Shown here: piece by piece, positions 9,039 to 49,590 of the stretch
How positions within the stretch are numbered: position 1 is the first letter of the stretch
Layout of the letters: the number at the start of each line of letters is the position of its first letter
Assembly (NCBI GenBank): GCA_020912385.1
Contig: CP087209.1
Location: forward strand, 1-64,000
DNA length: 64,000 nucleotides
Reading direction: 5' to 3'
DNA from: Neofusicoccum parvum
Taxonomy: Eukaryota; Ascomycota; Dothideomycetes; Botryosphaeriales; Botryosphaeriaceae
Translations under genes and position numbers: made by a program
The notes under the pieces: generated by a model
What the model was told of the DNA's origin: nothing
What the model saw: the letters and a program-made list of their open reading frames with translations, nothing else
Database searches by the model: none

Positions 9039-9084
<46 letters not shown>

Positions 9085-18753: not shown

Positions 18754-20342
18754 TCATCGCTTCCAGAATCTCCAGCCATCCGTACAACCCACCATCGCCT
18801 CGCCATTGGATAACGTCATGTACATGCCAATCAAGCTCTCGATGGCATCATTTCCCTCCAACCGCATGAATCTGTCATGGCCAGTCTCTGTGCTGCTTTC
18901 CCCGCTAGAGGCATCACGCAGAACAGCGGGCCACAACATCCCCACACCATCGCCAGCAAGCGTCGTTGTAAACGCTTCCATCCCTTCCTCCGCCAGCATC
19001 TGGTGCAAATCCGCCACCTTCTGCACTGAAGACGCCCTCGGCAGCTTCTTCGAAGTCTCCAACAACTCATCAGTGACAGCGCTAGTAGCAACCGAGACAC
19101 CCGGGCCTCGTTTGTTTGACTGGTGGTGGTTGTGGATCTCGACCCCAGGTTGGGGCAGGACGATGGCGCAGCCTCCGCCGCCCGCGCCCGTGAGCTTCAT
19201 CCAGCCGATGTCGAGCTGCTCGACCAGTTCGCGGACGCGCTCCAGCTTGGGGTGCGACACGCCAAGCGACGCCAGCAGCGCGTGGTTGATGGCGAGCAGA
19301 TTACCCAAATCCTGTTGCGCTAACACATGCTTGGGGTCAAAGTCGTGGGCGGAGATGAGCCCGTACGCGGATTCGGCCGTAGATCCGATGGCGTTTAGCA
19401 CGCGGTCGACGATGAGAGGGTACTTGTCCCTGAGGTTTCTTACTTTGGCAATTTCCTTGCTCGCGTTGCGTGGCTCGCGTGTGTTTACGAGTAGTAGAGG
19501 AAGCTCGGGGAAGCGTTGTAGTGGAATGACTACCGGAGGGTGCAGGGGATCCTTCTTTTGGTACAAGACGGCCTTTCCGCCGCTGGAGACGGTGTTGTCG
19601 ACTCCAGACGGGTTGCCGTGGATGCACATTTCCACCACGAAAGCCCATTTATTTATCAGGTTGATTTGCGTTTCGGTTTCACGTGTAGGCTGGTTTGAGC
19701 GTGGTGGCTTCTTCAGCGCTCCCGCCTGTAGTAACAGCGCAGTGCTTATGCAGACAGCCAAGCTTGCACTGCTGCCCAGACCTGCACCAACGGGTATGGT
19801 CGAGCGGACGGCGTAAACACAAGGATCTGAGCCTCGCTGAGAGCCAAGTAAAAGGAAAAGATAGAGGAACGCGAAAGCTGCGGACTGGTGGATCTTGCGC
19901 GTACGGTCGGGCAGGTTCGGAGAAATAGCTTTGATGTGTGGTTGAAGGTCCTCCACGAGATTCAGGTCCAGGGTCGTAATAAACTCGCAGTCTTGGCCCC
20001 ACCTGTTATGAACGACAGTGTCCCAGGGCAAGCCGTCAATATTCCATGTGTAGTCGAGGTCAATGTCGGGAGAGCATAGGGAGATAATGCGGTTTGACTT
20101 GGGGAGGAAGGTCACACGAAGGTAGGAACGCAGAGATATTGCGGCAGCTATGGCGGCCTGATTTTGTCAGTCAATTGCAACAGTTGGAGATGTGTTCCCA
20201 CCTTTCCATACACGACCGCATGTTCTCCATAGACAATAACCTTGCCAGGTGCCGAGACCATGAAAGCAGGCCTGAGCGAGGAGGAATCCATAGCCTGGGG
20301 CATTTGCTCCGACTCCTGACTTCTGTCGAGCGAGAATTCCAT
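18754..20342 (-). CDS. erg12: Mevalonate kinase
   Basis: Phosphorylates mevalonate with ATP in the cytosolic isoprenoid pathway. Two exons, 20342-20202 and 20157-18754, with a 44-bp GT-AG intron that restores a continuous frame of 514 residues. GHMP-kinase motifs are in place: PGKVIVYGEH at about residues 32-41, PVGAGLGSSASLAV at about 169-182 (ATP loop), GNPSGVDN near 229-236 with the catalytic Asp, and LTGAGGGGCA near 369-378. An alternative start is Met18. It is the leftmost cluster gene, with its 3' end hard against the LTR/LINE insertion. Housekeeping fungi carry one such gene elsewhere, so this is probably an extra pathway-dedicated copy (inference). No damaging change was seen. Confidence 0.95.
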
Positions 20343-22645: not shown

Positions 22646-24199
22646 ATGCAATTACGCGCGCAAAACGTTGGTATCAAGGCCATTGAAATATACTTCCCGA
22701 ATCAAGTAAGTCTTTCTCTACCCACACCACTAACGCAACAGAAAATTACTAAGCCGTCAATAGTGCGTCGACCAGGCCGAGCTCGAGACGCACATGGGGG
22801 TACCTTCTGGCAAGTTCACCATCGGGTTGGGTCAGATGCAGATGGCGTTTTGCGATGATCGCGAGGGTAGTATTTCACTTGCCTCTCTATGGGTACACCC
22901 AGCTGATTTCTGCTTTGTGGAGTAAAGACACGTATTCGTTAGCCCTTACCGCAGTTTCGTCATTGCTCCGAAAGTACAGTGTAGATCCGAGATCCATTGG
23001 CCGGCTGGAGGTCGGCACCGAATCACCGCTTGACAAATCCAAATCCTGCAAAACCGTACTCATGCAACTCTTCGAGCCGCATGGCAACACGAACATTGAA
23101 GGATGTGACACCTTCAATGCTTGCTACGGCGGTACGAACGCCTTGTTCAACACCATCAACTGGCTGGAGTCGTCGTCCTGGGATGGACGAGATGCGATCG
23201 TTGTAGCCGGAGATATTGCGCTGTACGACCAGCCAGCTGCAAAGCCCACAGGAGGAGCCGGATGCGTAGCCATGTTGGTCGGCCCCAATGCACCCCTCAT
23301 TTTCGACACCGGGCTGCGCGGTTCCCATTTCAAGCACACGTACGACTTCTACAAGGCGGACTTCAAGTCCGAGTACCCATTGATCGACGGACAATACTCG
23401 ATCCAGTGCTACACGCAAGCCATCGATGCCTGCTACAAGCACTACCACAGCCGGAAAGACGCCATGAAGACGATGCTGAACGGCTCGTGGAAAGACCTCG
23501 GGCTGGCCGAGGGCGAAGTGGAGTTGCCGTTGGACTACTTCGACTACATGGTCTTCCACGCGCCGACTTGCAAGCTTGTCGAAAAGTCCTTTGCCCGCCT
23601 CATGTACAATGACTTCGTTGAGAACCCCGACCACCCATTCTTCGCCTCCGTGCCCGCCGAGCTGAGAGGGTTGCTTCCGAAGGAAACCTTGACCAACAAG
23701 ACTGTGGAAAAGACTTTCGTTGCTCTAGCGAAAAAGCGGTTCGCCGCGCGCGTCAGCTCCGGACTCACAGTACCAGCCATGTGCGGAAACACTTACACTG
23801 CGAGCGTCTACGGTAGCCTCATCAGCTTGATGACCAATGTAGGCAGTGATGACTTGCAGGGTAAGCGTATTGGACTTTTCAGCTACGGCAGCGGACTGGC
23901 CAGCTCTCTGTTCAGCCTGACTGTCCGTGGCAACGTCTCCAACATGATAGGCAAGCTTGACCTGCTATCGAGGTTGAAGCAGAGGCACATTGTTTCTCCA
24001 GAGGGTTATGATGAGGTAAGACTTGCCGTGTGTCAAGAGTTTCGTGTTACTGATTGTTCGACAGGCGTGTAAAATTCGGGAGAGTGCGTACCAACGAAAG
24101 GATTACGCTCCGGTTTCGGGAACTGCGAGGTTGCTTCCAGGGACGTATCATCTCGTCGGTGTTGATAGTATGTTTCAACGCACATATGAGGTTGTATGA
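22646..24199 (+). CDS. erg13: Hydroxymethylglutaryl-CoA synthase
   Basis: Condenses acetyl-CoA with acetoacetyl-CoA to HMG-CoA. Four exons, 22646-22705, 22764-22866, 22928-24015 and 24065-24199, give 461 residues. All introns are GT-AG and keep the frame; exon 2 restores [18 protein letters not shown]. Active-site residues are visible: Glu86 in [11 protein letters not shown], Cys120 in NACYGGT and His265 in VFHAPTCK. The length is normal for the fungal enzyme. It is transcribed away from the isomerase gene across a shared promoter. Together with the reductase and mevalonate kinase in the same cluster it would raise mevalonate supply locally. No stop or frameshift was seen. Confidence 0.95.
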
Positions 24200-24494: not shown

Positions 24495-25628
24495 ATGGCT
24501 TCCACCAAGGCCTCGCACCGTCCTCGATTCGATCCAGACTATGAGAAGATCATGGCAGTAATACCTCCCTTTCTCGAAGTCCCCACGAAAGACGCAATTC
24601 CCAAGATGCGACAGCTGGTGGAAGCTCGCCAGGCGCCCGTCCTGGCCAAACTCACGTCGGACACGAGCCTGCATTACCAGGAGCGCACGATTACCGGCCC
24701 GCGCGGCGAGATAACCCTTTCCATCCTTTCACCTGCCACCACCACCAGGGCGGCCGGGGCCCAGCGGACCGATCTGCCGTGTGTACTATTTCTCCGTGAG
24801 CCAGCCCATGCATTGCGCCGCAGTAGTACTGCTTCTTGCCATTTTCACTGCTAACTCACGCTCCTAACGGCAGATGGCGGCGGTATGATCTCGGGCTCGC
24901 GCCTCGCCGGCCTCGATATGTTCGCGCCATGGGTCGCAGCCGCGAACTCCGACGAATGCGCCCCCGTGGTCGTTAGCGTCGAGTACCGGCTGGCGCCCGA
25001 ACACCCGCACCCGACGCCCGTCGACGATTGCTACGCGGCCCTGCGCTGGGTGACGTCGACGGCAGGCGGCGCCGGCGAGATCGGCATCGACCCGTCGCGA
25101 GTGGTGCTGGCGGGGGCGTCGGCGGGCGGCGGGCTCGCGACGGCGGCCGCCCTCATGGCGCGGGACCAACAAGCCGCACCCGGTCCACGTCCGCGCGGCC
25201 TGCTGCTGGTGTACCCGATGCTGGACGACCGCAGCAGCAGGATCACAGCGACGGCGTCCGCCCGGCAGTTCGCGACGGGCGGGGTGTGGAGCGGCGCGAG
25301 CAACGAGCTGGGCTGGGCGAGCTTGCTGGGCGACGAACACGCCGAAAACGTCTCAATCTACGCGGCTCCGGGGCGAGCGACCGCCGCCGACCTTGCAGGT
25401 CTACCGCCCGTGTACATGGACGTCGGGTCCGCGGACGTTTTTAGGGACGAGGACGTCGCGTTCGCGGCGCGCCTGTGGGAGAGCGGCGCGCGCGCGGAGC
25501 TGCACGTGTGGCCGGGCGCGCCGCACGCCTTTGACGGGCTGGTGCCAGGCGCAACGGCGTCCAGAGCGGCATTTGCGGCGCGTTGGGCTTGGTTCAGCCG
25601 CCTGGTTGCGGAGGAGGCGCGGGACTGA
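24495..25628 (+). CDS. Alpha/beta hydrolase, hormone-sensitive-lipase family
   Basis: Probable carboxylesterase or deacylase acting on a cluster intermediate. Two exons, 24495-24795 and 24874-25628, give 351 residues; splicing creates the oxyanion-hole motif HGGG at 101-104. The nucleophile elbow GASAGG puts Ser at 183; SADVFRDE near 287-294 and GAPHAFD (His318) supply the likely Asp and His. No signal peptide is apparent. GC-rich, like the rest of the cluster. The substrate cannot be read from the sequence; removing an acyl group or opening a lactone are both plausible. It lies between HMG-CoA synthase and a P450 on the same strand. Confidence 0.88.
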
Positions 25629-26245: not shown

Positions 26246-28258
26246 ATGGAGCTGAAAATTCCTGCGGGGTCGCTATACGCTATCTGCCTTTTCGCTGCGA
26301 TTTTCGTCTTCACGGTAGCAGCGTCAAGGCTGATGAAGCCAAGAGTGCCTCCGAATGTCCCAATCCTCCAGTTCTCCACTTCGCATGCCAAAGATGTCCA
26401 AAGGTATCTCAAAAACGGCGCGGACGTGATGAAGGAGGGATACAACAGGGTAAGCGCCGTGCTCCAGCTCCATCCGCCAGAGCCTTACTGATTGATTCTC
26501 TTCAGTTCTCCAAAAAGGGCCAAAACTACCTCATGCGCGCGCCCGAGGGGCTTGTCTTCGTGGCCGCACCACGCTTCATCGAGGAAATCAGGTCCGCGTC
26601 CGACGACGCGCTCTCTGCCATGGCTATCAACAACTCAACACTGCAGGTCAAATACACGCTGCACCCGGCCCTTCTTGAGGATTGGTACGAGTTTGATGTT
26701 GTCCGGAAGCAGCTCACACAGACCCTGGGTAAGCGGAGAGCGGTGAGCCCACCCATGAATCGAGAGGCAGTCCTGACGATAGTATGATCCAGGAGCCAGC
26801 CTACCCGAGATCGTGGACGAGTGTCGGATGGCCTTCTCGAAGGAGCTAGGCAGCCCTGCAGGTACGTTTGCGCGTCGCTCGCTGAAATGCAAGCAAGCAA
26901 CCCGAGCTGACGGAAAATTGCAAAAGACTTCGCCCCCAGCTTGATGTGGCCGATCGCGTGCCATATCGTGACCCGCACGACAAACCGGCTGCTGTTTGGC
27001 TCACGACTCGCCGCAGACGAAGACTTCCTACGCCTGTCCGTCGACTACACGTACACCGTCTTCGGTGGCGCCCATGTCATCCGCGCGTGGCCCGCATTCT
27101 TGCGGCCGCTGGTACTGCGGTTGCGCACCGGCGTCGTCGAGCAGTCCGCCATCGCGAAGAAATTCCTGGCACCCGAGCTGCGCGCGCGCATCCAGCGCAT
27201 GCGCGACGCAGCGGCAGCGGGTCGGACGGCTGAGTTTGAGAAGGAGAAGCCGAATGATGCGAGTAAGTGGAGATGATGCTTTCCTTCGATATCGAACCTT
27301 TATCGATGATGCAGCCTTCTGACTGCCGTGGCTCAGTACAATGGGTCCTCGATATTACCCCTGCCAACAAACTGGACGATGTCGACATCCTCGTGTACCG
27401 CATGCTACACCTCAGCATTTCTGCCATCCACACCAGCAGCAGCTCCTTCGCCGACGCCATCTACGACCTGGCCCTTCATCCCGATATTCATGACGAGCTG
27501 TGCGAAGAGATCAAAACCGTGCTTACAGAAGAGGGCGGCTGGAATAAACAAGCGCTCACCAGGATGATCAAGATGGACAGTTTCATGAAAGAGAGCGCGC
27601 GCTGGCACCCGTTCCTAGCAGGTACGTTTGCAGCCCTCATCCTAGGCACAAACGGTTGTTTGAAAGGGATGCAGAAGAGCGGGAGGGGAAGACTTGGCCC
27701 GACGACAGCATCACTTACACTGCCACGTAGGTTCGATCGAACGCCTTGCCATGCGCGACTTCCCCCTCAGCGATGGTACCGTCATCACTAAGGGCACCAA
27801 GGTCACTGTCCCGCATTACGCCATGTACTTCGACGAGGCGGTGTACGGCCCTACCGCCGCCGACTTCGACGCCTTCCGCTTCTCCAAGCGGCGCACGCAG
27901 CCGGGCCAGGAAACGAAACACTCATTTGTGCAGTGCACGCCCGATTTCACGCATTTCGGGTACGTTATCTTCCTATGCATTAGCGAGCACACGCACGAAG
28001 CAAGCAATGATGTACTAAACTCCTTCTACCAGATACGGAAAACACGCCTGCCCCGGCCGCTTCTTCGCCGCCAACGAGATCAAGGTCCTCCTGGTGTACG
28101 CACTAGCTGTGTACGACATTCGGTACGCGAAGGCTAAGCCGCAGCCGACCCCGTTCTGGATAGGCGGTTTCAGGACGCTGGACCAGTCGGTCAGCATCGA
28201 GTGGAAGCGGCGGGAGACGCCGCTGGTCTCTCTGGAGCAGCTCGAGTGCAGGGTGTGA
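26246..28258 (+). CDS. Cytochrome P450, ent-kaurene-oxidase-like (CYP503 type)
   Basis: Membrane-anchored monooxygenase. Seven exons: 26246-26449, 26506-26728, 26793-26861, 26927-27262, 27337-27621, 27731-27959 and 28033-28258; all splice in frame to 523 residues. A hydrophobic anchor lies at about residues 8-27; the ExxR region is near ESARWHP; the heme loop [13 protein letters not shown] has Cys455. The pattern HSFVQ...[11 protein letters not shown] and the [11 protein letters not shown] segment resemble gibberellin-pathway ent-kaurene oxidases, which oxidise a methyl of a diterpene. Stepwise oxidation of a labdane methyl would fit here (inference). The family call rests on motif memory. 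The stop is 65 bp from a solo LTR, so the 3' UTR is probably disrupted. Confidence 0.9.
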
Positions 28259-29376: not shown

Positions 29377-30290
29377 TCATTCCAATAGAACCGACGGCGG
29401 TTCTTCAGAGGTAAGATTCTGCTCTATAACTACGATATCCTCCTCAGTCAGGCCGCAGCTCGCCTTGACATACTCTCTAGCTCCACCATAGCGCTCACGA
29501 AGAAACTGAAGCGTGTCTATCATACAATCGTACCTAATCGCCACACGTCAGCACAATCCCGTCACAAGCAGACGACATGAAGGAAAGGAGGGTGTGAAAA
29601 AAGTCTCACCTGGCGCCAGCGACCCTCTCCGCCTTGGTGCGATCACCGCCGATCTCCGGTTTGGCGAGCAAGTAATCAATAATGAACTGCCTGCGCCCCG
29701 CGAGGCCCAGCTCGGTCAGCTCGTACTCCCTCGCAACGACGCGATCGGAGCAGCCGGCCAGCTTCAGCAGCACGGCGACGACGACGCCGGTGCGGTCCTT
29801 GCCCGCGCTGCAGTGGCACAGCAGCGCGGTGCCGGGCCGGTGGTCGCGCACGTGCAGGAGCATCTCGCGCAGCGCGGTGCCCGCGTGCTCCAGGATGCGC
29901 GCGTACGCGCGCACGTAGCCCGCCGTCGTCGCCGACGTCGCGTAGTCGCCGTGTCGCGACGCGATCGCCTCCGGGCTCCAGTCCTCGTACGGGAATATCG
30001 GCGTGGCACGCAGCCGGGCGCCTGCAGCTGCTAACGCGTCGATGGCGGGAGGTTGCCGTGAGAGTTCGGGCTGCGAGCGCAGGTCGAAGACGGTGGCGAT
30101 GTCGAGGGAGCGCAGAGTCGCGCTGCCGGCTGGTGTGAGGCGGTAGGGGTCCGCACTGCGGAAGATGAGGCTGTGGCGCGTGGACCGCTTCGGGGCGGAG
30201 GGCGGGTGCTCGAGCGGGAGGCCGCCGATGGAGCGGAAGTTGCTGACACCGTCGACGGCGACGAAGGGAGGAGATGGCGGTGACGACATG
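29377..30290 (-). CDS. Tyrosine-phosphatase-family protein, candidate terpenyl diphosphate phosphatase
   Basis: Two exons, 30290-29611 and 29533-29377, give 278 residues. The phosphatase loop HCSAGKDRTG has Cys160 and Arg166 (CX5R). NFRSIGGLP near the N terminus and IFRSADPYRLT mark the Tyr/Ser phosphatase family typified by fungal and bacterial Tyr_phosphatase_3 proteins. The last exon, reached through a 76-bp intron, restores the conserved tail LQFLRERYGG...SCGLTEEDI. It is divergent from the diterpene cyclase across only 215 bp, so the two are probably co-regulated. Because that cyclase lacks a class I site, a phosphatase that removes the diphosphate from a cyclised product would make sense. 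That role is inference; an ordinary regulatory phosphatase is the alternative. Confidence 0.88.
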
Positions 30291-30505: not shown

Positions 30506-33500
30506 ATGTCGCTGCAGTCCAGAGTCCGCGACCTCATCCGCCTCATTCCAATCGAGAATGGCGACGTTGGCTTCATGTCCTGCGCCGTCTACGACACGGC
30601 GTGGGTGTCGCTGGTGGCCAAGCCGACGGCAGACGGGAGCAGGCAATGGCTGTTCCCCGAGTGCTTCCGGTACGTCGTCGGCACGCAGCAGCCCGACGGC
30701 GGGTGGCCTGCGTACGCCGCCGGCATCGACGGGATCCTCAACACTGCCGCGTCGCTGCTGGCGCTGAGGGCGCACCAGGCCGAGCCCCGTCAGATAACCA
30801 ACTACTCGGCCGAAGAGCTGGCGCGCCGGATCACTGCCGGCACCGAGTCGCTACGCGCGCAGCTGCAGGCCTGGGACGTGACCGGCTGCGACCACGTCGG
30901 CTTCGAGATCCTGGTGCCGACCTTGCTGCAGCTGCTGAAGGACCAGGGAATCACCTTTGACTTCACCGGCCGCGCGACGCTGATGGCGCTGAACGAGAAG
31001 AAGCTCGCCCGGTTTCGTCCCGAGTTCCTGTACGCCCCGGTCAAGACGACGGCGCTACATTCACTCGAGGCGTTCGTGGGCCGCATCGACTTCGACCGCG
31101 TGCAGCACCACAAGACATTCGGCTCGTACATGGCCTCGCCATCATCGACCGCAGCCGTATTGATCCACGCCTCCAACTGGGACGAGGAGTCGGAGGAGTA
31201 TCTGCGCTGGACGCTGGCCTCCGGCGCCGGCCAGGGTGGCGGAGGCATGCCCAGCGCCTTTCCCTCGACCTATTTTGAAATCACCTGGGTAAGTACGCCC
31301 CGTGCCGACGAGAACGGTCACAATCCTTTACTGACCTGCATGAAGACCCTCAGCACTCTGCTCGAAGCGGGCTTCACGGCCGAAGACCTCGGCGGCGAGC
31401 GTGCGGAGACATTTGCGAGATTCTTGCGGGAGGCGCTGGACAGGCAAAATGGCCGCCTGGGGTTTGGTGAGTGGCAAGCGTGCAAGCATGCGTGTACTGC
31501 GGAGCTGATACAAATAAGCCCCTTCGGTTGGTGTCGACGCCGATGATACGGCCAAAGGGCTACTCACGCTGAGCCTGCTCGGCCACCCGGGCCCGCACCA
31601 GGGCATGCTGGACGAGTTCGAGGGCCCCACGCACTTCCGCACGTACTCGGGCGAGCGCAACCCCAGCTTTACCGCCAACTGCAACGTGCTGGACGCCATG
31701 CTGTCGCAGCCCAATGCCACCGCGCTCGAGCTGCAGATCACCAAGACAGCCAGCTTCCTCAGTGACATCTGGTGGGACAGCAGCAATGGCGCAATCGAAG
31801 ATAAGTGGGTGAGTGATACTGCCTTCTTCTGCGGCACCAGGAACCCTAGCTGACGTTTCCAGAATCTGTCGCCTTATTACCCATCGCTGCTCATGGCCGG
31901 CGCCTTCTCGAGGCTGGCCGAGACGTGGCAGCGCGGCGCGCTGCCCGGGGTCCCGGCCTCGGTCGTCGTCCACGCCGTGCTGCCGGCGCTGCACCAGGTG
32001 CTGGTCCACACCCTCTCAACTCAGAACGCCGACGGCTCGTGGGGGTCTGCCGCCATGCACCAGCCCACACGCGAGGTGACGGCATACGCGACGCTGACGG
32101 TGTGCAAGGCGGCGTGCCTGCCACTCGGCGGCGCGGTGCGGGCCCGGGTGGACGAGTGTGTCGCTGCGGCGCGCCATTGGCTGGCCGCGCACCCGGCCGG
32201 TCCGGAGCCCGAGCATCTTTGGGTCGAAAAGGTATCGTACGGTTCCGCCGTATTGGCCGAGAGCTACGTGCTCGCCGCCTTCAACGCGCCGCACTCGGCC
32301 CGTCCGGGGCTTGCGCGCGTCGTCGCCGCCTCCTCGCCGCTGGCGGCCGAGCTGGATGTTGCCCGTGTAGCGGCCGAGGTCGATGCCATGCGTTTGCCTG
32401 CCGCTGTGCTTGCCGCATTCGACGGGACCCGCTGGAAGCTGGAGGCGGCTTTCGTGGAGAGCGGCCTGCTCCGGCCCGCGGTACGGCAATGGGTGGAAGA
32501 GGCTGCGCCGGGGCTCCAGGTGGGCGAGGATGTCATCGCCCCCGCGACGTTCCGCGAGACGGCGGCTTGGTATGCCGAAGGAAGGTCGTTGTCGACGAGA
32601 AAGCTGTGCGCGAAGATGGGGACGGTGGTGTTGCAGCAGTGTACCATGAGTCACGCCAGCGGTGCTAACGGCCTCGCTAACGGCCTCGCCAACGGACACA
32701 GCAATGGACACAGCAATGGCGGACACAGCAATGGCCACACTAATGGCACGGCAAATGGACACAGTAATGGCACGGCGAACGGCACATCGAACGGCGCAGC
32801 GAACGGCACATCAACAGAGAACCGGCTCTCCAAAGCAGTAGTCGATGCCGGGCCTGGGCTCACCCTCCTGCCGCAGCATCTCACGTATCTACTGCCCGAT
32901 GGCTCAACAAGCAGCCTCGCAGACACTTTCGTGCACGGAACATCGACGTGCGATGCTGCCCTGGACGCGCAACTCGCGGCGGCAGCGCGCTCGACCGTCG
33001 TCGCATACAGCGAATCCTTCGCTCGGGTCGTAGGACCCAATCCAAGGGCCAAGCTCATTTCAGACAGACCGGGAAGCGGCGCCTACTACGAGTGCGGCGC
33101 GTACGTGCCTTCACACCGCGAGGTGTGGTTCACCAGCAGCTTCGCCAGGTAAGTAAGCCCGTCCACTATGCGCGAGGCATGACGGCTAACAAACACACAC
33201 AGCTACCCGAAACCGGGCTACATCACAGCCTGCAACATCGACACGGGCGCGCTGCGCCACGTCCCGCAAGTGCGCCACGGCGCCGGCGGGTACTACTTCG
33301 ACGGCAAAGTGTACATCGGCGGGCTGTCGCCCGAGGCCGGCGTCACCGCGGTGGACCCGACAACGCTCGAGACGTCCACGGTGCTGAACTCGTACTTCGG
33401 GCTGCCGATGCACCTGGCGGACGACGTGGCGTGGGTCGCACCGCAAGGCCCGTCCGGGCCGCGGTACCTCTTCTTCACCACCTTCTTCACCGCGCTCGAG

Positions 33501-34136
33501 CTCGCCCACGGCCTGCCCGCCCTCGACCGCCCCGTCTCCCTCCCCAACGGCGTCTGGCGCTGGGACCCGCAGGCCCACACTCTCTCGCTCGTCGTCTCCC
33601 GCCTCGACGTCGCCATCCCCAACGGCGTGCGCGCCTCGCCCGACCAGCGCACTCTCTACGTCACCGATAGCCTGAGCACCGAGACCGGCGGCGTCGGCAC
33701 AGGCTGCGGCCAGCATTGGGCCGCGTGCGCTGCCACAAGGAATGAGCAGGAACAGGCCGCGACGTCGTCGACGCCGCACTTCGCGCCAGGCGCGGGTCCG
33801 ACCATCTACGCGTACGACTTGCAGCACGACGCCACATCTTGCGCGCCCGTCAACCGGCGCGTCTTCGCGCACGTGCGTACAGGCTACGCCGACGGCATGC
33901 ACGTCGACGACGCGGGCCGCGTGTGGACGGCCGAGGGCGAGGGAGTCGTCGTGCGCTGCCCGCGCTCCGCAAAGGTTCTGGCCGTCTTCAACGCCGCCGC
34001 TTTCGGCATTCGTCCTGCCGCGGGCGACGCGCAGATTGCGAACTTTGCGCTGGCCGAGAACAAGCTGTTTGTCGGCGCGTATGACCGCTTGTATGTGGTT
34101 GAGTTGGCTGAGAGCTTGGCTGCTGGGCAGACGTGA
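30506..34136 (+). CDS. Class II diterpene cyclase fused to SMP-30/gluconolactonase-like domain
   Basis: Five exons (30506-31288, 31346-31466, 31519-31808, 31863-33148, 33203-34136) give 1137 residues. Residues 1 to about 560 are gamma/beta cyclase domains: VYDTAWV, PDGGWPAY, the class II acid D308-A-D-D311 in VDADDTAKG, and NADGSWG. This should protonate GGPP to a bicyclic, copalyl-type diphosphate. The following WKLEAAFVESGLL segment resembles the start of a class I alpha domain, but no DDxxD/DExxE or NSE motif follows. Instead an Asn-Gly-Ser-His-rich linker (about 660-715) leads into a beta-propeller: GGYYFDGKVYIGGL, IPNGVRASPDQRTLYVTDS (965-983) and YADGMHVDD (1055-1063), the metal-site blocks of lactonases. 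Intron 1 (57 bp) is in frame, so retention would not break the protein. Alternative: two genes, the second starting at Met 32646, with no intergenic space. Confidence 0.87.
32663..32812 (+). repeat. Coding minisatellite for the Asn-Gly-rich interdomain linker
   Basis: Imperfect tandem AACGGCCTCGCC, AATGGACACAGC and AACGGCACATCG units encode repeated Ala/His-x-Asn-Gly blocks between the cyclase and propeller parts. It marks the fusion joint and could have served as a recombination site or simply be an unstructured tether. Confidence 0.85.
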
Positions 34137-34758: not shown

Positions 34759-36076
34759 TTAGGGAATGATGCCGGCAGCTCTGAATCTATCAAAGGCCGC
34801 GTGCCACGACTGGATGGGATCGCGTTCCTCGTCAAAGCCGGCAGCGCGGAGCTTGTCCAGGCTGAGCTGGCGATCGAAGCTCAGGTACTCGCCAACCGAG
34901 TCTAGAAACTCGCCCTTCCAGTTCTCGGCTTTGGCCGCCGCATCCTGCCCCTTCAGCTTCTCGGCGTGCTTCTTCACGTATGCGCCGGGCATGGTGCCTT
35001 TGGGGTCAGGGTCAGCGCCTATGAGGCCGAAGTAGGCGGCCAGCGCGGGCCAGCGCGCGCGCATTGTCATCGGCTTGGCCGAGTCGGCGATGTTGTACGT
35101 CTGGCCGCCGGTGCGGTCGGGGTGCAGGCTGGCCCAGATGGCGGCGCGCGCGATCATGGCCGACGACGCGTCCGTCGACTGCGCGTCATAGCAGGCCTCG
35201 GTTCCCGGGTAGGAGACGGCTGCGCCGGGCCCCTCGACGGTGGCGTAAGTCGATAAGTACGTCGCCCAGTGCGCCGTCAGGTTGAAAGTGCTGCCATTGG
35301 GAGCGAAGCCGACCTGCGGTGGGGTCCTGTCAGCGGGGACGGAGCGCAGGAGGATACATGGTCGGGGCTACTGCTCACGATGGCGTCGGGCCGCACCTCG
35401 GCCCAGGTCCAGCGCTTGCCGGCGCTGGCCTTGCGCAACAGGTCCTGCAGCGCGAAGTAGAAGATCTGGCTGCGGTGAGGCTCGGGGAGCGGATCCATCG
35501 ATTCGACCAGCGGCGCCTTGTGTAGGCCGCCGGGTAGGTAGATGCCGTAGCCCTGTGCTGTCAGAGCAGGGTGCCGGAGTGGGGCAATGGGGGCTTACCC
35601 TGGTGCCGCTCGGAAAGGCGATGAACTGTAGGCCCGGCGCGAGGAGTTCGAGCGCCCTGATGACGCGCTCAAGCATAGCGGTGTTTGCATGGACCTCAAC
35701 CTCCCACTTGTCCTCCTGCTTGTAAGCTGTTTACCCAAGTCAGCTATGGCGTGCAGGCGCAGCAGATGGCGGCACGGGCCACACCAAAGTAATAGACGTG
35801 CGTGACCGAGGCCACATCAAGAACACGGTCCTTCAGGAAACCGGCAAAGTCGTTTGCGGAACCCTCGAGCAGGTTGGCGCCTGAGACCAGGGACAACTTG
35901 GGCCGCTCGGGCGAGGGAGAGGGCCAGAAGGCGTCTTCGAGCTTGAGCGGGCGGTTGACAAGCGCCGTCACCCTCTTGAAGGTGCCGGCGGCGGGATAGT
36001 TGGACAGAAGCTCGTCGACGACGGCCCAGCCGGCAAGGCCAGAGGCACCGAGGACCAAGGCGTGGTTGTCGGACAT
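34759..36076 (-). CDS. PRISE-like short-chain reductase (progesterone 5-beta-reductase/iridoid synthase family)
   Basis: NADPH-dependent reductase of the extended SDR superfamily. Four exons, 36076-35785, 35726-35599, 35552-35379 and 35313-34759, give 382 residues. The N-terminal dinucleotide motif GASGLAGW is at 10-17; VTHVYYFAYKQE and HANTAMLERVI match the family's active-site region; FIAFPSGTRGYGIYL, WTWAEVRPDAIVG and GQTYNIAD follow the family layout. Related enzymes reduce an enone double bond or cyclise dialdehydes, so an alpha,beta-unsaturated aldehyde such as a copalal-type intermediate would suit (inference). Splice sites were chosen to keep the frame and conserved blocks. Divergent from the P450 at 36515. 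Confidence 0.85.
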
Positions 36077-36199
36077 GATGGAATGATGTGTGAAAGACGA
36101 GGCTCGATGACCGGGGTGTTCTGGTATTTCACGTCGACGCGAACCTGTCCCTCTTGGCAGTCTCGGAAAGACCGTGCGCGGGCATTCTCCTCGTTCTAT

Positions 36200-36360
36200 A
36201 CTAGACGAGGAACGCTTATAAATACTTATCTCATATGTAAAAGTAACTTTACTATTATTATTTTAAAATATTTTAACTAACTAGAAGAACTAGTTTAAGA
36301 AATGATCAGCTAATACTAGTTTTAAAGAATTTATTACTTATTAAACCGTCTACGTACAAT
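36200..36360. other. AT-rich island in divergent promoter
   Basis: A TA-rich stretch with the texture of RIP-decayed repeat, inside the promoter shared by the reductase and P450. No element could be identified. GC content recovers before the P450 start. Confidence 0.5.
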
Positions 36361-36514: not shown

Positions 36515-38268
36515 ATGTCTGGCAATCTCGTCTTCGTCCCCGGTACTCTCAGGCAGCAGCCCTGGGTGGTGGGCTTGGGAGCCCTCGTGAGCTTGGTGAG
36601 AAGGGAACCCACTAGCCGGCATTGCGCCTCACTGACCCAAACAACAGCTGGCCGTGTATAGCGTGGGGTGGATGTTGTACAATCTGTACTTCCACCCACT
36701 GTCCTCGTTTCCCGGCCCGTTCGAGGCGTGCGCCACCCGCATCTGGTACTGCCGCAAGCTGCTGTCCGGCTCCGTATCGTTCGAGATCGGCAAGCTTCAC
36801 GAAAAGTACGGCGACGTTGTGCGCATCGCGCCCGACGAGTTGTCTTTCAACGACCCCAAGGCCTGGGATGACATCTACGGCTATCGTCCCGGCAAGGGAG
36901 AGATCATGAAGGACCCCGTCTTCTACGATGTCACCTCGTCCGGCAAGCTCAGCATCATCGGCTCCGATACCAAACGACACGGCGAGCTGCGCCGCCTCAT
37001 GGCCCACGGCTACTCCGACCGTGCCCTGCGCGACCAGCTCCCGGTCATCAAGAGCTACGCTGATCTCCTGTTCGCCAAGCTGCGCCATCTCAGCGAGACC
37101 GGCAAACCCGTCGATATGGTGAAGTGGTACAACGTGCGCCACTGTCGCTCTTCCCGCTCCCTGGTTGCACCACGCTGATGCCCGCAGTTCCTCACCTTCG
37201 ACGTCATCGGCGACCTGGCCTTCGGCGAATCCTTCGACTGCCTGAAGAACTCAGAATACCACAGCTGGATCAGCATCGTATTTGACAACATCAAGCTGAG
37301 CGCCTATCTACGCTGCACCCAATACTACCCCAGCATCGTCCGGCCGCTGCTCAAGCTCTTCATCCCGCGTCACTTGACTGCCCACCGCGCAGGCCACATG
37401 AAGTTGACGCGGGAGAAGGCCATGCGCCGGCTGGACATGAAGACGGACCGCGTCGATCTCATGTCGCGGTTGGCCGCGCCCGGCAGCGGCATAACACCAG
37501 CCGAATTCACGTCTAACTGCGGCACCGTCATCGTCGCCGGGAGCGACACAACCGCCAACCTGCTCGCCGGTGTCACCCACTTTCTATCGCAAAACCGCCG
37601 CTGCTACAACAAGCTGGCCAGCGAGGTCCGCTCCACCTTCAAATCCGAGGACGAAATCACGCTCGCTGCCGTAAATCAGCTCGAATACCTATCCGCCTGC
37701 CTGACCGAGGCCCTGCGCCGCTACCCGCCCACCCCCGCCCACCTGCCGCGTCGCACCAGCATGGACGATACCCTCGCTGGCAAGTTCGTGCCCAAGAACG
37801 TGCGTCACACCTCGCCTTCTCTTCTCTTCTCATCAATTTTTGTCGACTGAATGCTTGACCCAGACCACCGTCTCCATCTCCCACGTTGTCATGTACCACA
37901 CCGAAAAGTACTTCAAGCGGCCCCACGAATTCATCCCCGAGCGCTGGCTCGGCGACCCCGAATTCGACTCGGACCGCAGGGATGCGCACCAGCCTTTTAG
38001 CTTCGGGCCGCGCGCCTGCATCGGCCGGAAGTAAGCCTCCCCACCCCACCAACGAGCCCATCCTGATTTCTCGTCCTCTACCACGTATATTTGCTGATTC
38101 TCGACAACTTCCAACAGCTTGGCATACATTGAGATGCGCTTGACTATCGCCCGGCTGATGTGGAACTTTGATTTTGAGGCCGTGCCCGGTTACGAGATGT
38201 GGCACATGCAGAACATCTACCTTGGCTGGCAGAAGGTTCCTCTACCCATCAAGTTGACGGCCCGATAG
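36515..38268 (+). CDS. Cytochrome P450
   Basis: Five exons, 36515-36595, 36648-37133, 37188-37799, 37864-38030 and 38118-38268, join in frame to 498 residues. A hydrophobic N-terminal anchor precedes the FPGP hinge. The I-helix has AGSDTT, the K-helix EALRRYPP (ExxR), and the heme loop FGPRACIGRN has Cys445; the last intron falls inside that loop after Arg-Asn, as in many fungal P450s. It resembles the trichothecene/aflatoxin-type fungal oxygenases (CYP58/65-like); the exact family is uncertain. Substrate unknown; position argues for diterpenoid tailoring. Shares its promoter with the PRISE-like reductase. Confidence 0.9.
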
Positions 38269-39936: not shown

Positions 39937-41474
39937 ATGTTTGCAACTCTGAAGTATCATCCCCAGACCAGCTTGTCCGAAGTAGGCAATAAGGCTTCTA
40001 CCCGCTCAACTGGGAGCATCTCGCGGCTAGCCTGCATCAACTGCAGGGAGAAAAAAGTGAGAAATCCTGCCGTTCCTCCTTCCATATCTATATTAATCAT
40101 AATAGCTTCGATGTAAATTTGGCGAGCGGGGGTGTGAGCGCTGTCTGCTAAAAGGGCTCGAATGCACGTATCCTCAGAGGGCGCCCCGGACGGGGCCGAA
40201 GAAGAACGCCACATTCTCGAATGAAAGCGTATCTGAAGATAAAGATATTTCAAGAAGCCCAGAGCTGGTCGCCAAGACGCCCGAAACATGGGATTCGCGC
40301 CACCAGCCGTCTGACAGTATTGAATGCCTTGACCATGATGTACCAGACGCCACCTCATCCAGGGCGGACTCCGCAGTTGCAACATATGGGGAAACACAGC
40401 CCCTCGGCAAGAAGGTTTCCGCCCATGGCGGAATTGCTCGCGACATCCAATTTCCAACGCTGGTCGAGTCACCTGTCAATTCAACAACGGGGAACAACCT
40501 TGCATCAAAGACCGCCGAGGAAGCGGCCGCAGACACAAATCATGTATTCGGTAAGCTGTTTTACTCCCTCGCCTGGTCTTGAATCCACCACCGCTCACCG
40601 CCACTCTACAGTGGACCTTTCGGCGTCCGAATACGATTTCTCGACCACTGACATCGACGCCCACAGCCTGGACGCAAGCCGCCTCTCACCCCTCGACTCC
40701 ACCATCTGGTGTAATGACTGGCTCGATCCATCCTGGCCGCAAGATTCGACGACGGCACTATCCCTGCAACAAAGCGGCACAGAGCCATCGCCCTCATCAG
40801 TCGACGCCGCCGACGTGGCGAAGAAGAAGACGGATCAAGGGCCCATGCCCACCCCCACGCCGACGATCCCGACTAAGTGCAACTGCGTGCAGCTAGCGAT
40901 CGAGGCGCTCGAGAAGGTCACGGCGTGGGCGGAGGTGGACGACTTCCAGCTCGCGCATTCTGCGCTCGCCGCGCACAAGGATTTGCTCACGCAGTGCGAG
41001 GCTTGGCTGGCTTGCACACGCTGCTCCTCACCATCGTCCGTCGTCATGCTGATCCTTGTCATCACCGACAAGCTCATCGCGTCTTTTCGCCACATCCACG
41101 CCTTCAGTCAGCAGTCCTCGGCCGCGGCGGCGGCGACGACGATGTCCTTGGACGATCGGGCTGGCTCTGGCCCATCATCGCTCGCGAGGAGTGGCGGCGG
41201 CGGCGGCGCTGGTGATGTGATGGTTCAGCAACAGCTGGATAGGCGCATCTCACTGGGCGACTATCAGATCGACTCCAGCGGGGAGTGGTCACTTGTGATG
41301 AATGTTCTGCTCTCATCCCAGCTGTCCAGGCTCGGCATTCTGTTTACGAAGCTGTGGACGAGGCTCAATTCGTCCAAGGAGGAGTCGCAGGTGCAGATCA
41401 TTCAGCAACAACAGGACCGCCTTCGGACCTTCATGACCCACTTGAAGCGCAGTACTCCGTGCTCCGGCTGCTAA
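39937..41474 (+). CDS. Zn(II)2Cys6 regulator, AflR type; likely cluster activator
   Basis: Three exons, 39937-40056, 40106-40550 and 40612-41474, encode 475 residues. The first intron splits the zinc cluster. After splicing the six cysteines fall at 33, 36, 43, 50, 53 and 60 (Cx2Cx6Cx6Cx2Cx6C), followed by a basic stretch PRTGPKKN. The C-terminal half begins at about 278 with CNCVQLAIEALEKV and continues ...CEAWLACTRCSSPSSVVMLI, the layout of the AflR domain in secondary-metabolite regulators. It probably controls the surrounding genes in the nucleus. The only regulator seen in the window. Starting further downstream would lose the zinc cluster. Confidence 0.92.
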
Positions 41475-43561: not shown

Positions 43562-45437
43562 TCATTTGCGATTCAGTGCCATGTGGCTCTGAATGAGGTC
43601 CTGCGTCACCAGGGCGCTGCACAGGCTCAGTTCCCCCGCGAGAACAGCAGCAGCGATTGTCTTTGCCAGCTGTGCTGCGTTACTCCCATCGGCCCGATCC
43701 GCACCACGCGCGCCAATCAGCTCCAGCATGGCGGACTGAGGGGCCAAGCCGGTTCCACCACCAACTGTGCCCACCTCGAGAGACGGCATAGTCACCGAGG
43801 CCTTGAGATCCCCAGAGGGCGTCCTGTCGAGAAGTCAGCGTATCGAGGGTTAGAAGGGGTGCCGGCATGACTCACTCCTCCATGAGCGTCAGACAGTTGC
43901 TGCTGGCCACGACCTGGGCGATATCCTGGCCGGTAGCCAGAAAGACGGCCGCCACGATGTTGGCGGCCTGCGCGTTGAAGCCGCCAACACTTGACCCAGC
44001 GACGGCCGAGCCGACGAGGTTCTTGTGGGTGCTGACGTGCACGAGGGCGGCGACTTCGCACTTCAGCACGCGCCGCACGGCGTCGGCGGGCACGACGGCC
44101 TCGGCGCAGACGCTCTTGCCACGACCGTGGATCCAGTTGACCGCGGCTGCCTTCTTGTCCGCGCACACGTTTCCGGACAACGAGAGGACGTGCATCTCGG
44201 CCAGGGCAGGGCACTGCTGCGCCGCCGCGGCGCCGCGGAGCCGGTCCAGCGCCAGCGCCACGCCCTTGCCGACCATGTTCATGCCCATGGCCTCGCCCGT
44301 GCGCGCCTTGAAGCGTACGTACAGCCGCGAGCCGACGATGGTCGACGTCGCGTGGACGAGGCGGCCGAAGCGCGACGACGCGTCGAAGGCGTCGGCCAGC
44401 AGCGCCTGGCCGGGCGGCGAGTCGAGGAAGCGCTTGGCCTGGGCGGCGGTGCGGAGCGACGGGAAGCCCAAGACGGGCGCCCGCGTCATGCCGTCGTCGG
44501 CCAGCTCCGTCTGCACGCCCAGCCCGCCGCGGGCGTGGTTGAGGGCTTTCGCGCCGCGCGACGTGCTGGCCACGAGCGCGCCCTCGGTCGTCGCCATGGG
44601 CACCATCACCCGCCGCCCGTCGACCGCCAGCGGGCCCGCGACCCCCACCGGCACGGGCACATAGCCGATGACGTTCTCGGCGCACCTCCCTGCCACGGCG
44701 TCGAAGTCGTAGTTGCGGTGCGGCAGCCCCGACAACGCGCGGTGACTGCGGTAGTACCCGTCATCCTGCTGCTGCTCCAGCAGAATCAGCGAGAGCACCG
44801 CCCGTCGGATGCGCACCGCGCGCGCCGCGTCCCCTACTACCCTCTCGAGCGCGTGCAGCGGCAGCTTGCCCGCGCTGACCAGCTGCACGATGTTCCCGTT
44901 GCGCAGTTCCGACGCGCGGCCTTCAGAGAGCAGCTTGAGGCTTGTCTCCAGCGAGTGCGGCTCGCGCTGCTGCTCCGCCGCGCTCGGGCTCGCGTGGCCA
45001 GAATCGTGGAACGAGGAGATTTCGCTGCTAATGGTGGAATTTCCCTCCTCCTCGTCCGAGGACGGCTCGTCCGGCGTGGGCGCGGGCATGCCGTCGCACT
45101 TGCAGTCGCAGTCACAAGGGATGACGCGCTCGAATATCGAGTCCTCCTCAAGCGCCTCGGCCGGCGTTGATGGCAAGATTGTGTCTGCGAGGTGTTGTTA
45201 GCGTGGCCGCGGTTCAGTGTTATCGTTTCTGTGGAGGAGAAACGCACAGCGGACAAACAGCCCAGCGGTGATGCTCACACCGACTGCCACCCCCATGAGC
45301 ACTAGGTAGTCCGCGCGGAGGGGAGCGATAAACAAGGCCATGGTAGCAATCAGCTCGGTTGCGGTTTCGGTGCGGTTACGCCCGACAGGCGTGTCGGTCT
45401 GGAGCAAGCCAATCCAAGTGCTTGTTATCCGAGGCAT
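43562..45437 (-). CDS. hmgR: HMG-CoA reductase, short form without sterol-sensing domain
   Basis: Reduces HMG-CoA to mevalonate, the main control step of the pathway. Three exons, 45437-45248, 45184-43876 and 43823-43562, give 586 residues. One hydrophobic segment (about 43-62) replaces the usual multi-span membrane region, so the enzyme would be a single-span protein with an acidic linker (SSDEEEGNS) before the catalytic domain. Catalytic blocks are complete: TTEGALVAS (Glu264), [15 protein letters not shown] and the C-terminal QSHMALNRK with the catalytic His. Fungal housekeeping forms are about 1000-1200 residues. Loss of the sterol-sensing segments should free it from sterol feedback (inference). 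The first intron has donor GTGCGT and a CTAAC branch-like sequence. Confidence 0.93.
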
Positions 45438-46293: not shown

Positions 46294-47657
46294 TCACCAC
46301 ATCTTGTACACCAACCGACCCGCCACCTTGCCCTGCATCAGCTCCTGAAAGCCTTCATTGATCTGCTCCAGCCTCCGTGTCTCATGAACCCCTGCAATGC
46401 CGTGCTCCGCCGCCTGGGCGAGCGCCTCGACCAGGTCCTGCTTATTGCCCTGGTTAGTCGCGATGAGGGAGATGTCGCGCTTGACCATGTCCAGCACGCG
46501 CACGGCGATGGGCTCTTTCGGTACGCCGACGGCGACGATGCGGCCGTGATTCCCTGTCACGCGGAACGCGAGCTCGTACGCCGCGGCCGCGCCCGTCGTC
46601 ACGATAGTCGCGCCCAGCTGGGCGAGTGATTCCGCCGCGGCAGCATCGGTCGTTGTTGCGGTGGCCGTGTTGAATGTGGCGTCCGCGCCCGAGACACGGG
46701 CCAAGCGCAGCTTGTCCTCGTCGACATCGTCTACGATGGCGGATATCAGAAACTGACGACGATCTGGTGGTTGGGTGGAGGAAAGGGGGAAGGGGGCTTA
46801 CACGCATGTACTCGGTAGCCCATCGCCTTTGCGTACATAATGGTCAGGTGGCCTGTTTGGAAAGTAAGCAGGCTGGAAGGTCAAGAGTGCAGAGAAAATG
46901 TGCGTTCAAAGCTTACCGACGCCACCGCAGCCGATGATGTTGATGAAAGTACCGCCGGGCTGCACGGCCGAGATCTTGCGTAGGGCGCCGTAGGCCGTAA
47001 CGCCGGCGCAGAGGAGCGGAGCAGCACTGTTTCGAAGTGAGCATTGCCTGTCACCAATAGCATCGGCCTCGTCGCTCACGTCTCATACGACAGAGCGTCT
47101 GGGATCTTCACTGTCGACAGCGGGTCTGCAAGCGCGTACTGGCTGAAGCCGCCATACGGGCCGCGGAATCCAACGGGGGTCTTCTTGGCGCAGAAGCGGT
47201 GGTTGCCGCTATTGCATTCACTGCATTCGACTACATCGCTCAGCATGGAGTTGCGCGGAGGCGGGGGGTTGGACACGCACGGCAGGTCCACGAGGCGGGC
47301 ATGAAGCCGACGCGGTCGCCCTTGGAGAAGCCCTTCACACTGCTTCCCATTGCTACAACCACACCCGCGGCTGGTTACACATTAGTGCCGGAGGCCGAGT
47401 GAAAAAGGGCACCAACTCACGTTCGTGTCCGGCGCAGTAGGGCGTGGTGGCGCCGACCGCGCCCATCCAGCCGGCAAGATCGGAATTGCACAGCGATGAT
47501 GCCATCACCTTGACCAATATCTGATCTGCCGCGGGTTCGGGGATGGGCAGGGTCCGCAGCTCCAGCGGCTGCTTGAACTGTCGCACATGAGCACGCCGTA
47601 TCCGGGGCCGAATAAGGAACGTACCTCAACAACCGTGGCTGCAAGCATGGTGGCCAT
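46294..47657 (-). CDS. Zinc-dependent alcohol dehydrogenase
   Basis: Medium-chain dehydrogenase of about 342 residues in seven exons: 47657-47625, 47577-47421, 47370-47281, 47230-47080, 47026-46917, 46852-46802 and 46730-46294. Catalytic zinc ligands appear in SSLCNSDLAG and GHE. The structural zinc site CLECSECNSGNHRFC (Cx2Cx2Cx7C) appears only with the chosen 50-bp intron at 47280-47231. The nucleotide fold has IIGCGGVGHL and AYDVDEDKLRLA. Likely oxidises an allylic alcohol such as a dephosphorylated diterpenol, or reduces the aldehyde. Its divergent partner is an aldehyde dehydrogenase, so alcohol to aldehyde to acid is a natural reading (inference). The exon 6/7 junction is the least certain splice. 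Confidence 0.87.
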
Positions 47658-47819: not shown

Positions 47820-49590
47820 ATGGCGCCCACCATGACCAGCCCCCTCCTCCCCTCCGGCGTCGCGCAGCACGGCTGCTTCATCGACAACGAGGTGCGAAGA
47901 AGACAACGCCGCTCGCCCGGTAGGCCTTGTTGCTGACCGGTCCCCACAGTACCACGGCGGGGGCGGTGCACCCTGGACACTGCACAACCCCAAGGACGGC
48001 ACGGCGCTGCAGGAGCTCGCAGGCGCCTCAGCCGCCGACGTCGACGCGGCGGTGACGGCTGCGGGCCGTGCCTTCTCCACAGGGCCATGGGCGGATGCGC
48101 CAGCCGCACAGCGCGCGCGGCTGCTCCACCGGCTGGCCGACCTCATCGACGAGCACGCCGAGGCACTGGCGCGGCTGGAAAGCCTCCCCTCAGGGCGGCC
48201 GATCTCCATGGTTCTCCACGGCGATCTCCCGCGCGTGGCCGACGTCTTCCGCTGTAAGCACCTACGCCTCCTTTCCTTTTTCGCGCCAAGCCGCGAGACC
48301 TAACGCCATGCGGCGCAGACTACGCCGGGTGGGCGGACAAGGTCAAGGGCGACTCGTACGCGCCTGAGGGCGGCTTCTACAAGATCGTCGAGCATGTGCC
48401 GCTCGGCGTGTGCGCCCTGGTGACGGCGTGGAACGCGTCGCTGCACTTCCTGGCGTGGAAGGCGGCGCCCGCGCTGGCGCTGGGCAACACTGTCGTCGTC
48501 AAGCCGAGCGAGAAGTCGCCGCTGGGCACGCTGGCATTCGGTCACCTCGCACGCGCCGCCGGCTTCCCGCCGGGCGTCTTCAACATCGTGGCCGGCGACG
48601 GGACCGCGGGCGCCGCGCTCGCGGCCCACGCCGGCGTGCACAAGATCTCCTTCACTGGCTCGCTCACCACGGGACGCCGCGTGCAGCTGGCCGCCGCCGC
48701 GTCCAACCTCAAGCGCGTCACGCTCGAGCTCGGCGGCAAGAGCCCCGCCATCGTCTTCGCCGATGCAGACCTCGACAACGCCGTCGCGTGGACCCTGCGC
48801 GGCATTACGACCAACAGCGGCCAGGTGTGCGCCGCCACCTCGCGTCTGATCGTGCACGAGGCCATCGCCGACGTCTTTGTCGCCCGCCTGAGGGCCGCGT
48901 TCGACGCCATCGCCGCCTCCCTGGGTGCCGACCCGCAGTCGCCGTCCACTACTTACGGCCCGTTGATTGACGCCGCCCAGTACGAGGCGGTGCTCGGACA
49001 CATCAGCGCCGCGAACGCGAAGGGTGCCGCTGCCGTTACCGGCGAGAAGGGCTGCTACGTCGCCCCTGTCCTGGTCGTGGATCCGGACCGCGAGTCGAGC
49101 GTCTACCGCGACGAGGTCTTCGGCCCCGTGCTCTGCGTCGAGACGTTCGCCGCCGAGAACGAGGCTCTCGAGAAGGCAAATGACACGCACTACGGCCTGT
49201 CTGGTGCGTCCCGTGTTCCTTTAGCGTTCCAAACGAGGAGGTTTACTGATAATGGTAGGCGCGATATACACCAAAGACATCAGCCGCGCCATCCGCATCT
49301 GGCGCCAGGTTCAGGCCGGCACTGTTTGCGTCAACTGCGCTCTCATGGCCGGGCCACAGATGCCCAACGGCGGCTTCAAGAGCAGCGGCACTGGTAGGGA
49401 GCTTGGCGAGTATGCGCTGCGCCACTACGCCGAGCCGCGCGCCGTGTGGATCAAGTGGGTGCTTTCCTTCGTCGTTCCCTCGGTTGCTTATGAGCAGAGG
49501 CTGACCACCCTCGCACAGCATGAGCACGTGAGAAGAGACATGTTTCACCGATGTCTGCCATGTCTTTGCACCAAGAGCCTTTCGAGATAG
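47820..49590 (+). CDS. Aldehyde dehydrogenase, NAD(P)-dependent
   Basis: Oxidises an aldehyde to an acid. Four exons, 47820-47891, 47950-48253, 48319-49203 and 49259-49590, give 530 residues. The fold is complete: VTAWNASLHF, VVKPSEKSPLG, SFTGSLTTGR, the general base Glu262 in LELGGKSP and the nucleophile Cys296 in NSGQVCAATSR, then EVFGPVL and MPNGGFKSSGTGRE. The predicted C terminus runs about 35 residues past the usual end (after AVWIK) with unrelated-looking sequence, so a missed intron or earlier end is possible near 49455. Divergent from the alcohol dehydrogenase; the pair could turn a diterpene alcohol into an acid. Confidence 0.92.

Follow-up and report, generated by a model that had tools for sequence, protein, structure and literature searches.

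A class II diterpene cyclase fused to an SMP-30-type beta-propeller in a predicted subtelomeric diterpenoid cluster of Neofusicoccum parvum

A single gene in the window, the 64,000-nucleotide stretch of Neofusicoccum parvum DNA analyzed here, is predicted to join a class II diterpene cyclase, half of an alpha domain, a linker and an SMP-30 propeller in one reading frame, and we hold this anatomy with very high confidence. Judged from sequence, the fusion is a real domain architecture of a known enzyme kind, kept in two genera. Our preferred reading, to which we give a probability of about one half, is that the cyclase would start the pathway of the surrounding gene cluster and that the propeller would make or open an ester or lactone in that pathway. 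Terpene synthases are commonly described as built from alpha, beta and gamma domains in various combinations. The fusion, found in fungi of two classes, instead continues from a truncated alpha domain into another enzyme fold.

Results

The fusion gene (30506..34136, + strand) was modeled from its splice sites and open frame as five exons (30506-31288, 31346-31466, 31519-31808, 31863-33148 and 33203-34136) encoding 1137 amino acids. All introns are GT-AG and translation of the five exons gave no internal stops, which bore out the single spliced frame of 1137 codons read in the initial annotation. The boundary between cyclase and propeller falls wholly within exon 4 (31863-33148), so joining the two requires no splice choice; intron 4 (33149-33202) is required for entry into the last exon and splits the coding part of the propeller. 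The frame encodes, all on the + strand, the beta-gamma domains of a class II diterpene cyclase (residues 1-540; 30506..32288), the leftover N-terminal half of an alpha domain (residues 541-665; 32289..32663; alignment A2 and predicted helices at 549-665), an Asn-Gly-rich linker (residues 666-724; 32664..32840) and an SMP-30/gluconolactonase-like beta-propeller (residues 725-1137; 32841..34136). The repetitive Asn-Gly linker had likewise been recognized initially; we found it to be encoded by a 12-15-bp minisatellite (tandem repeats at 32690-32810) and predicted to be disordered (pLDDT below 50 at 666-724). Flagellar, serine-rich and RiPP matches to the linker in NCBIfam fell far below their cut-offs and were set aside as low complexity. 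Third-position GC ran at 0.78-0.92 through the end of the cyclase and the alpha stub but fell to 0.64-0.68 in the linker and at the propeller start, a drop that fits two origins and is the sole composition result leaning to two units.

The beta-gamma domains carry the DxDD motif of class II diterpene cyclases as D308-A-D-D311 (31536..31547, +; motif search and alignment), and a sequence search of the PDB matched residues 7-539 to two copalyl diphosphate synthases, 8v0f (E = 2.3e-146) and 9q3i (E = 2.8e-142). The class II cyclase named at the first reading was confirmed by this motif and match. Pfam named no cyclase domain in the fusion, and the NCBIfam squalene cyclase model scored 12.3 bits against a cut-off of 322.7. 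In the AlphaFold model of the fusion the class II part was poor (10-residue means of 31-60 between residues 171 and 260) and matched 9q3i with poor geometry (rmsd 13.5), so that the argument from fold rests on the model of an unfused relative, which matched 9q3i at 45% identity and 1.8 A; none of the best 50 structural matches of that model reached past residue 552. We infer that the N-terminal part would be a class II diterpene cyclase acting on GGPP by protonation.

Class I motifs are missing. We found no DDxxD or NSE-type pattern in the whole 1137-residue protein and no DExxE or NDYGS-type motif after residue 550, and neither the motif search nor Pfam turned up a class I site elsewhere in the fusion. 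Absent, then, are both the DDxxD/DExxE plus NSE/DTE combination that marks the alpha domain of bifunctional CPS/KS enzymes and the C-terminal PF00348 domain that marks CPS-prenyltransferases, SGL being the only Pfam family above cut-off. Residues 541-665 align with the first alpha-domain half of bifunctional fungal enzymes (alignment A2), and the stub ends on the helix that bears DEYME or DEFME in bifunctional relatives, where the fusion has no such motif. In the same alignment DExxE is missing likewise from P0002 of Helicocarpus griseus, P0003 of Aspergillus alliaceus and P0004 of Aspergillus wentii; NDYGS is absent from all three as well. AlphaFold predicted seven helices between residues 549 and 665, and the 10-residue means ran from 84 to 93 across 581-660. 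Compared with the three other clade members, this half domain is 23-32% identical and residues 1-540 are 56-66% identical, a divergence that would be expected if the half domain had been retained for folding and not for catalysis. The initial annotation had described a class I domain replaced by the propeller; its loss stands, but about half of the alpha domain was kept and then extended.

Pfam assigned one family above cut-off to the fusion, SGL (PF08450; E = 6.2e-12, 46.1 bits against 26.3), the only other row being Arylesterase at E = 0.1. The PDB sequence search also matched gluconolactonases weakly at the C-terminus (E = 0.0015 and 0.021). AlphaFold modeled the propeller mostly with confidence, with one weak loop at 988-1023, and the best structural matches of this SMP-30-type fold were the gluconolactonases 3dr2 and 3e5z. 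We take the divalent-metal ligands of SMP-30 proteins to be Glu, Asn/Asp, Asn and Asp, and all four putative ligands appear to be kept, in five of five clade rows in each case: E808 (33090..33092, +), Glu in 41 of 41 other propellers (alignment A1); D900 (33420..33422, +), Asp in 37 and Asn in four of the 41 others; N967 of the PNG block (33621..33623, +), kept in 38 of 41; and D1057 of the ADG block (33891..33893, +), kept in 40 of 41. Profile alignment to 3dr2 supports N967 and D1057, shows Asn at the D900 position and does not include the position of E808. The SMP-30-like domain with PNG and ADG blocks that had been noticed initially is upheld by PF08450 and these residues. N. parvum carries Tyr at one of the clade-specific propeller positions, which are defined on three readable rows at three sites and seven at the fourth, with the fused rows not included. 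A hydrolytic or lactonizing role for the propeller is slightly favored.

The same propeller fold also occurred among the structure matches in phosphotriesterases, strictosidine synthase and a hetero-Diels-Alderase, and we counted this against our best explanation.

A search of protein databases for other cyclase-SMP-30 fusions, one of the checks first suggested, returned one more. This is Helicocarpus griseus AJ79_09819 (P0002), of 1091 residues, which is 56% identical to the fusion over 100%; N. parvum belongs to the Dothideomycetes and H. griseus to the Eurotiomycetes, so the fusion occurs in two classes and two genera. The deposited N. parvum protein P0001 differs from the window protein at 5 of 1137 residues, but its record is named with the H. 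griseus locus tag and the model may therefore be a homology copy and not independent. Judged this way, the independent evidence for the fusion is the frame in the window plus one deposited protein. Among proteins 0.55-1.75 times the length of the fusion, the propeller-region search gave two matches (P0001 and P0002) in 7,989 scored candidates; in our protein searches scoring was limited to the candidates with the most words in common (7,987, 7,989 and 7,999), so fusions at a greater distance may have escaped. Each of the two fusions was on deposit already, under the name "hypothetical protein", and we found no paper describing a cyclase-propeller fusion in the open-access literature searched.

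It could be argued that two neighboring genes were misjoined by the gene model or the assembly, given that unfused counterparts of both parts exist in Aspergillus, that Met 650 and Met 660 lie upstream of the linker in the window protein, and that third-position GC falls at the linker. We consider this very improbable. The boundary lies within a single exon, and the last Met of P0002 is residue 626 or earlier, so that, provided the deposited protein is correct, there is no ATG from which its propeller could be translated separately. Two separate genes, which the initial annotation had named as an outcome that would overturn it, are unlikely on these two grounds, and its other such outcome, an assembly join, is disfavored by the same fusion in a second species, which makes an assembly error very unlikely. 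Structure prediction, also proposed there, returned a half alpha domain, a disordered linker and a mostly confident propeller.

The closest other cyclases, A. alliaceus P0003 (698 aa) and A. wentii P0004 (690 aa), end shortly past the same truncation, and the propellers of these species are separate proteins (P0123 and P0122, respectively). The longest contig listed is 839,051 bases for P0003 and P0123 alike, which makes a common scaffold for the two genes very probable. In a cyclase tree of 33 hand-picked rows out of 120 listed cyclases, themselves the best of 351 matches, P0001-P0004 were united at 100/100 and nested within bifunctional enzymes. Class I motifs required at least three state changes on this tree, where three of the seven rows lacking them (P0013, P0017 and P0112) may be truncated gene models. 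Loss of the class I half is, on this alignment and tree, common to the fused proteins and the unfused Aspergillus cyclases, and the domain swap as first described does not hold, the class I half having already been lost in a lineage that includes unfused cyclases.

The propeller tree (34 hand-picked rows, comprising 32 of 107 propeller matches and the two fused domains) united the fused domains with the unfused A. wentii, A. alliaceus and Claussenomyces propellers and five fragments at 100/99; P0218, with its odd start, was among the rows omitted from the trees. In the tree submitted to an AU test, N. parvum was paired with H. griseus at 94/81 (unstarred). The alternative tree, with H. griseus beside Aspergillus, was not rejected by that test (p = 0.215), and we therefore claim neither horizontal transfer nor a single fusion event. 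The truncation may have been followed by one fusion with later fission in Aspergillus, or the fusion may have arisen from an unfused pair. Deletion between neighboring genes, as first proposed, fits the A. alliaceus pair, but the same AU result leaves unfused ancestry and a later split both standing. The two fused propellers are 62% identical and their cyclases 66%.

A hydrophobic N-terminus (crude hydropathy maximum of at least 1.39) was seen in 34 of the 36 outer propeller relatives P0129-P0164, the exceptions being P0132 and the partial P0155. By the same crude measure both Aspergillus clade propellers start with a hydrophobic stretch, a hint that they may work in another compartment. This weakens the case for an obligatory tether, and the unfused Aspergillus pairs likewise suggest a tether that can be dispensed with. 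The Claussenomyces propeller P0121 has a hydrophilic, linker-like N-terminus (hydropathy 0.42) and may represent the C-terminal part of a third fusion. A search of the N. parvum genome for another cyclase of this clade gave at least six matches, which came from the window gene and one gene on contig C12 (25039-27062, minus strand). The latter has DEFME and NDAGSVARD, looks like an ordinary bifunctional gene and was dismissed as a second cyclase of the fusion clade. For the propeller, the best match outside the window reached 38% over part of the query.

The contig starts with telomere repeats, and gene content indicates that the fusion is in a subtelomeric diterpenoid cluster, bounded by a helicase/reverse-transcriptase zone and by a second zone that is retroelement-like by eye and gave no domain match. 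Upstream of the fusion lie genes for a GHMP kinase, probably of the mevalonate pathway (18757..20166, -), an HMG-CoA synthase (22753..24072, +), an alpha/beta hydrolase (Abhydrolase_3; largest exon 24876..25625, +) and a cytochrome P450 (approximately 26926..28250, +; PF00067 at 27.3 bits on 27748-27963, no match on 26926-27261). A tyrosine-phosphatase-family gene encoding HCSAGKDR (29606..30289, -; PF13350, 6.1e-42) is divergent from the fusion, the two starts being about 216 bp apart, and its product is a candidate diphosphate-removing enzyme. Downstream are a PRISE-like reductase in several exons (approximately 34759..36262, -; PF22917 on two exons), a second P450 (approximately 36636..38220, +; PF00067 on 37182-37814, no match on 36636-37175), a putative AflR-type regulator below the Pfam cut-off (40152..41474, +; 20.0 bits against 24), HMG-CoA reductase (43872..45197, -), a zinc alcohol dehydrogenase (46321..47580, -; PF00107 on 46321-46740, the ADH_N part below cut-off), an aldehyde dehydrogenase (approximately 47947..49461, +; PF00171 on 48258-49394, outer exons by codon score), a SnoaL-like protein (49763..50599, -; PF13577) and a GXWXG-domain exon (50965..51207, +; PF14231).

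A polyprenyl synthetase resembling GGPP synthases, encoded apart from the cyclase, follows (52030..53148, +; PF00348, 1.2e-45 on 52030-52635, with no Pfam match on exon 52846-53148), then a third P450 (53708..55521, -; PF00067 on 53708-54073 and 54319-55521) and an FMO-like, probably Baeyer-Villiger-type, monooxygenase (55638..57458, +; PF00743 at 33.7 bits on 55891-56271, no match on 56316-57455). Read by eye, the FMO-like protein carries FKGKLLHSAAWD, in which we recognize what we take to be the Baeyer-Villiger fingerprint, FxGxxxHxxxW. A separate GGPP synthase and the mevalonate genes would fit a cyclase with class II activity only.

Discussion

One polypeptide would thus hold two enzymes on a flexible tether. 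The GGPP synthase of the cluster would supply GGPP, which the class II cyclase would protonate and release as a bicyclic labdane diphosphate, and with no class I site in the fusion the cyclase would take this no further. A phosphatase would strip the diphosphate, oxidation and C-C cleavage would yield the C13 methyl ketone, and a Baeyer-Villiger enzyme and a hydrolase would take off two more carbons; such a loss of four side-chain carbons, passing through a methyl ketone and a Baeyer-Villiger ester to hydrolysis, would call on enzyme types present in the cluster. The C12 acid could then close with the C17 or C6 alcohols into lactones, and it is there that the metal-dependent SMP-30 propeller would act, on a later intermediate of this pathway whose ester or lactone it would hydrolyze or close. 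The end product would most likely be a tetranorlabdane dilactone of the botryosphaerin, wentilactone or asperolide type. This order of steps is drawn from gene content and chemistry and from no paper. As the initial annotation had suggested, the fusion could couple early and late steps, conceivably by channeling.

The cluster product is probably a tetranorlabdane. Parts of the literature that we consulted record tetranorlabdanes including the 19,6:12,17-diolide from Botryosphaeria sp. P483, a strain named from ITS (PMC6331882), asperolide A from A. wentii CBS 141173 (PMC11600568), and wentilactones A and B and asperolides A, B, C and E under A. wentii in a review (PMC10780140). In the literature searched we met no tetranorlabdanes described from N. 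parvum or H. griseus and no recognized pathway for fungal tetranorlabdane dilactones; Helicocarpus goes unmentioned in the consulted parts of the review that lists tetranorlabdanes (PMC10780140), and the portions examined of the A. wentii genome paper assign no tetranorlabdane genes (PMC11600568). Those portions ascribe two pimaradiene-synthase-like genes to pimaranes (PMC11600568), an observation that we counted against the tetranorlabdane reading, since P0004 may be one of the two.

Other roles for the propeller were weighed. It might act right after cyclization, removing phosphate or diphosphate from the labdane in a cyclase-phosphatase assembly like drimenol synthase. We think this unlikely: an HCX5R phosphatase-family gene is already present next to the fusion, the best structural matches of the propeller are gluconolactonases, and we know of no SMP-30 enzyme that hydrolyzes prenyl diphosphates. 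Somewhat less likely still is a non-hydrolytic catalyst of ring closure, cycloaddition or isomerization on a borrowed SMP-30 fold, since all four ligand positions are retained and two gluconolactonases outscore strictosidine synthase and the hetero-Diels-Alderase well in structure comparison. By crude hydropathy the unfused relatives look secreted, which would put a fused copy in surroundings new to it and would suit a propeller carried as a passenger for stability or localization with no catalytic role. Fused and unfused clade members alike, however, preserve the ligand residues and core motifs, and the fused propellers are nearly as similar to each other as their cyclases are, which makes a mere passenger improbable.

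With the propeller acting on an ester or lactone, our preferred reading, the fusion may give a lead to the biosynthesis of a family of fungal lactones. From a natural gene fusion one would expect the cyclase and propeller that are separate in Aspergillus to serve one pathway, and this prediction is a direct handle on the genes for wentilactones, asperolides and botryosphaerins. A bolder and doubtful proposal is that the fusion marks the first recognized fungal tetranorlabdane dilactone pathway, in which a class II cyclase, deprived of its class I half, took over a once-secreted lactonase as a cytosolic terpenoid lactone synthase, placing the first and the ring-closing enzymes in one protein.

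The fusion can be set beside several known systems. The fungal bifunctional CPS/KS-type synthases (P0005-P0012) share its class II beta-gamma domains, DxDD motif and first alpha half, but all eight keep DEYME or DEFME and NDYGS, are 942-991 residues long and have no propeller. The copalyl diphosphate synthase of Penicillium verruculosum (9q3i, with 8v0f close by sequence) has a class II domain 40-42% identical to that of the fusion; its second domain, in an enzyme titled 'bifunctional' in the PDB, is presumably a prenyltransferase, and the propeller stands at that place in the fusion. A. alliaceus P0003 and A. wentii P0004 belong to the clade of the fusion and share its alpha truncation, but their propellers are separate (P0123 and P0122). 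The gluconolactonases XC5397 (3dr2) and 3e5z, of the SMP-30 family, have the propeller fold and the aligned ligand motifs, yet they are about 20% identical to the fused propeller, are stand-alone chains of about 300 residues and, we assume, use sugar substrates. Drimenol synthase (9mhs, 9m7d), to whose chain residues 232-526 and 242-536 the model of the unfused relative aligns, resembles the fusion in that a class II terpene cyclase carries a further domain; the partner fold differs, the remainder of that enzyme being, as we understand it, a HAD phosphatase.

Class I motifs and linker sequence in related proteins

Both class I motifs (DExxE type and NDYGS type) were absent from the fungal class II cyclases P0013, P0017 (Apiospora) and P0112 (Teratosphaeria), proteins of 662-730 aa that were placed on branches other than the fusion clade. 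Either class I was lost repeatedly or these gene models are truncated. P0121, a Claussenomyces protein from the same propeller clade as the fused domains, is annotated as a stand-alone propeller; its residues 1-40 are hydrophilic and linker-like, which may mean that its gene model was cut short and that the protein is a third fusion. In the fusion gene itself, the Asn-Gly linker is encoded by a minisatellite with a 12-15-bp unit (window 32690-32810), and linker length may therefore differ among strains.

Genomic setting of the cluster

Elsewhere in the same genome, on contig C12 (25039-27062, minus strand), lies another CPS-like gene, and this one has class I motifs. A P450-like ORF, judged by eye, adjoins it, and from these two genes the region C12:21000-30000 is a putative further diterpenoid locus.

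Because the window begins at a chromosome end, with about 18.7 copies of the telomere repeat (AACCCT)n at 1-110, the diterpenoid cluster is subtelomeric. Mobile-element-like sequence flanks it on both sides: a reverse-transcriptase ORF (PF00078; 15218-17173, plus strand) on the left, and on the right coding sequence judged by eye to be retroelement-like, with TAG stops in frame (about 58200-60000, plus strand). A long ORF adjoining the telomere (5096-9367, minus strand) encodes OrsD and DEAD-helicase domains; we take it to resemble a telomere-linked helicase.
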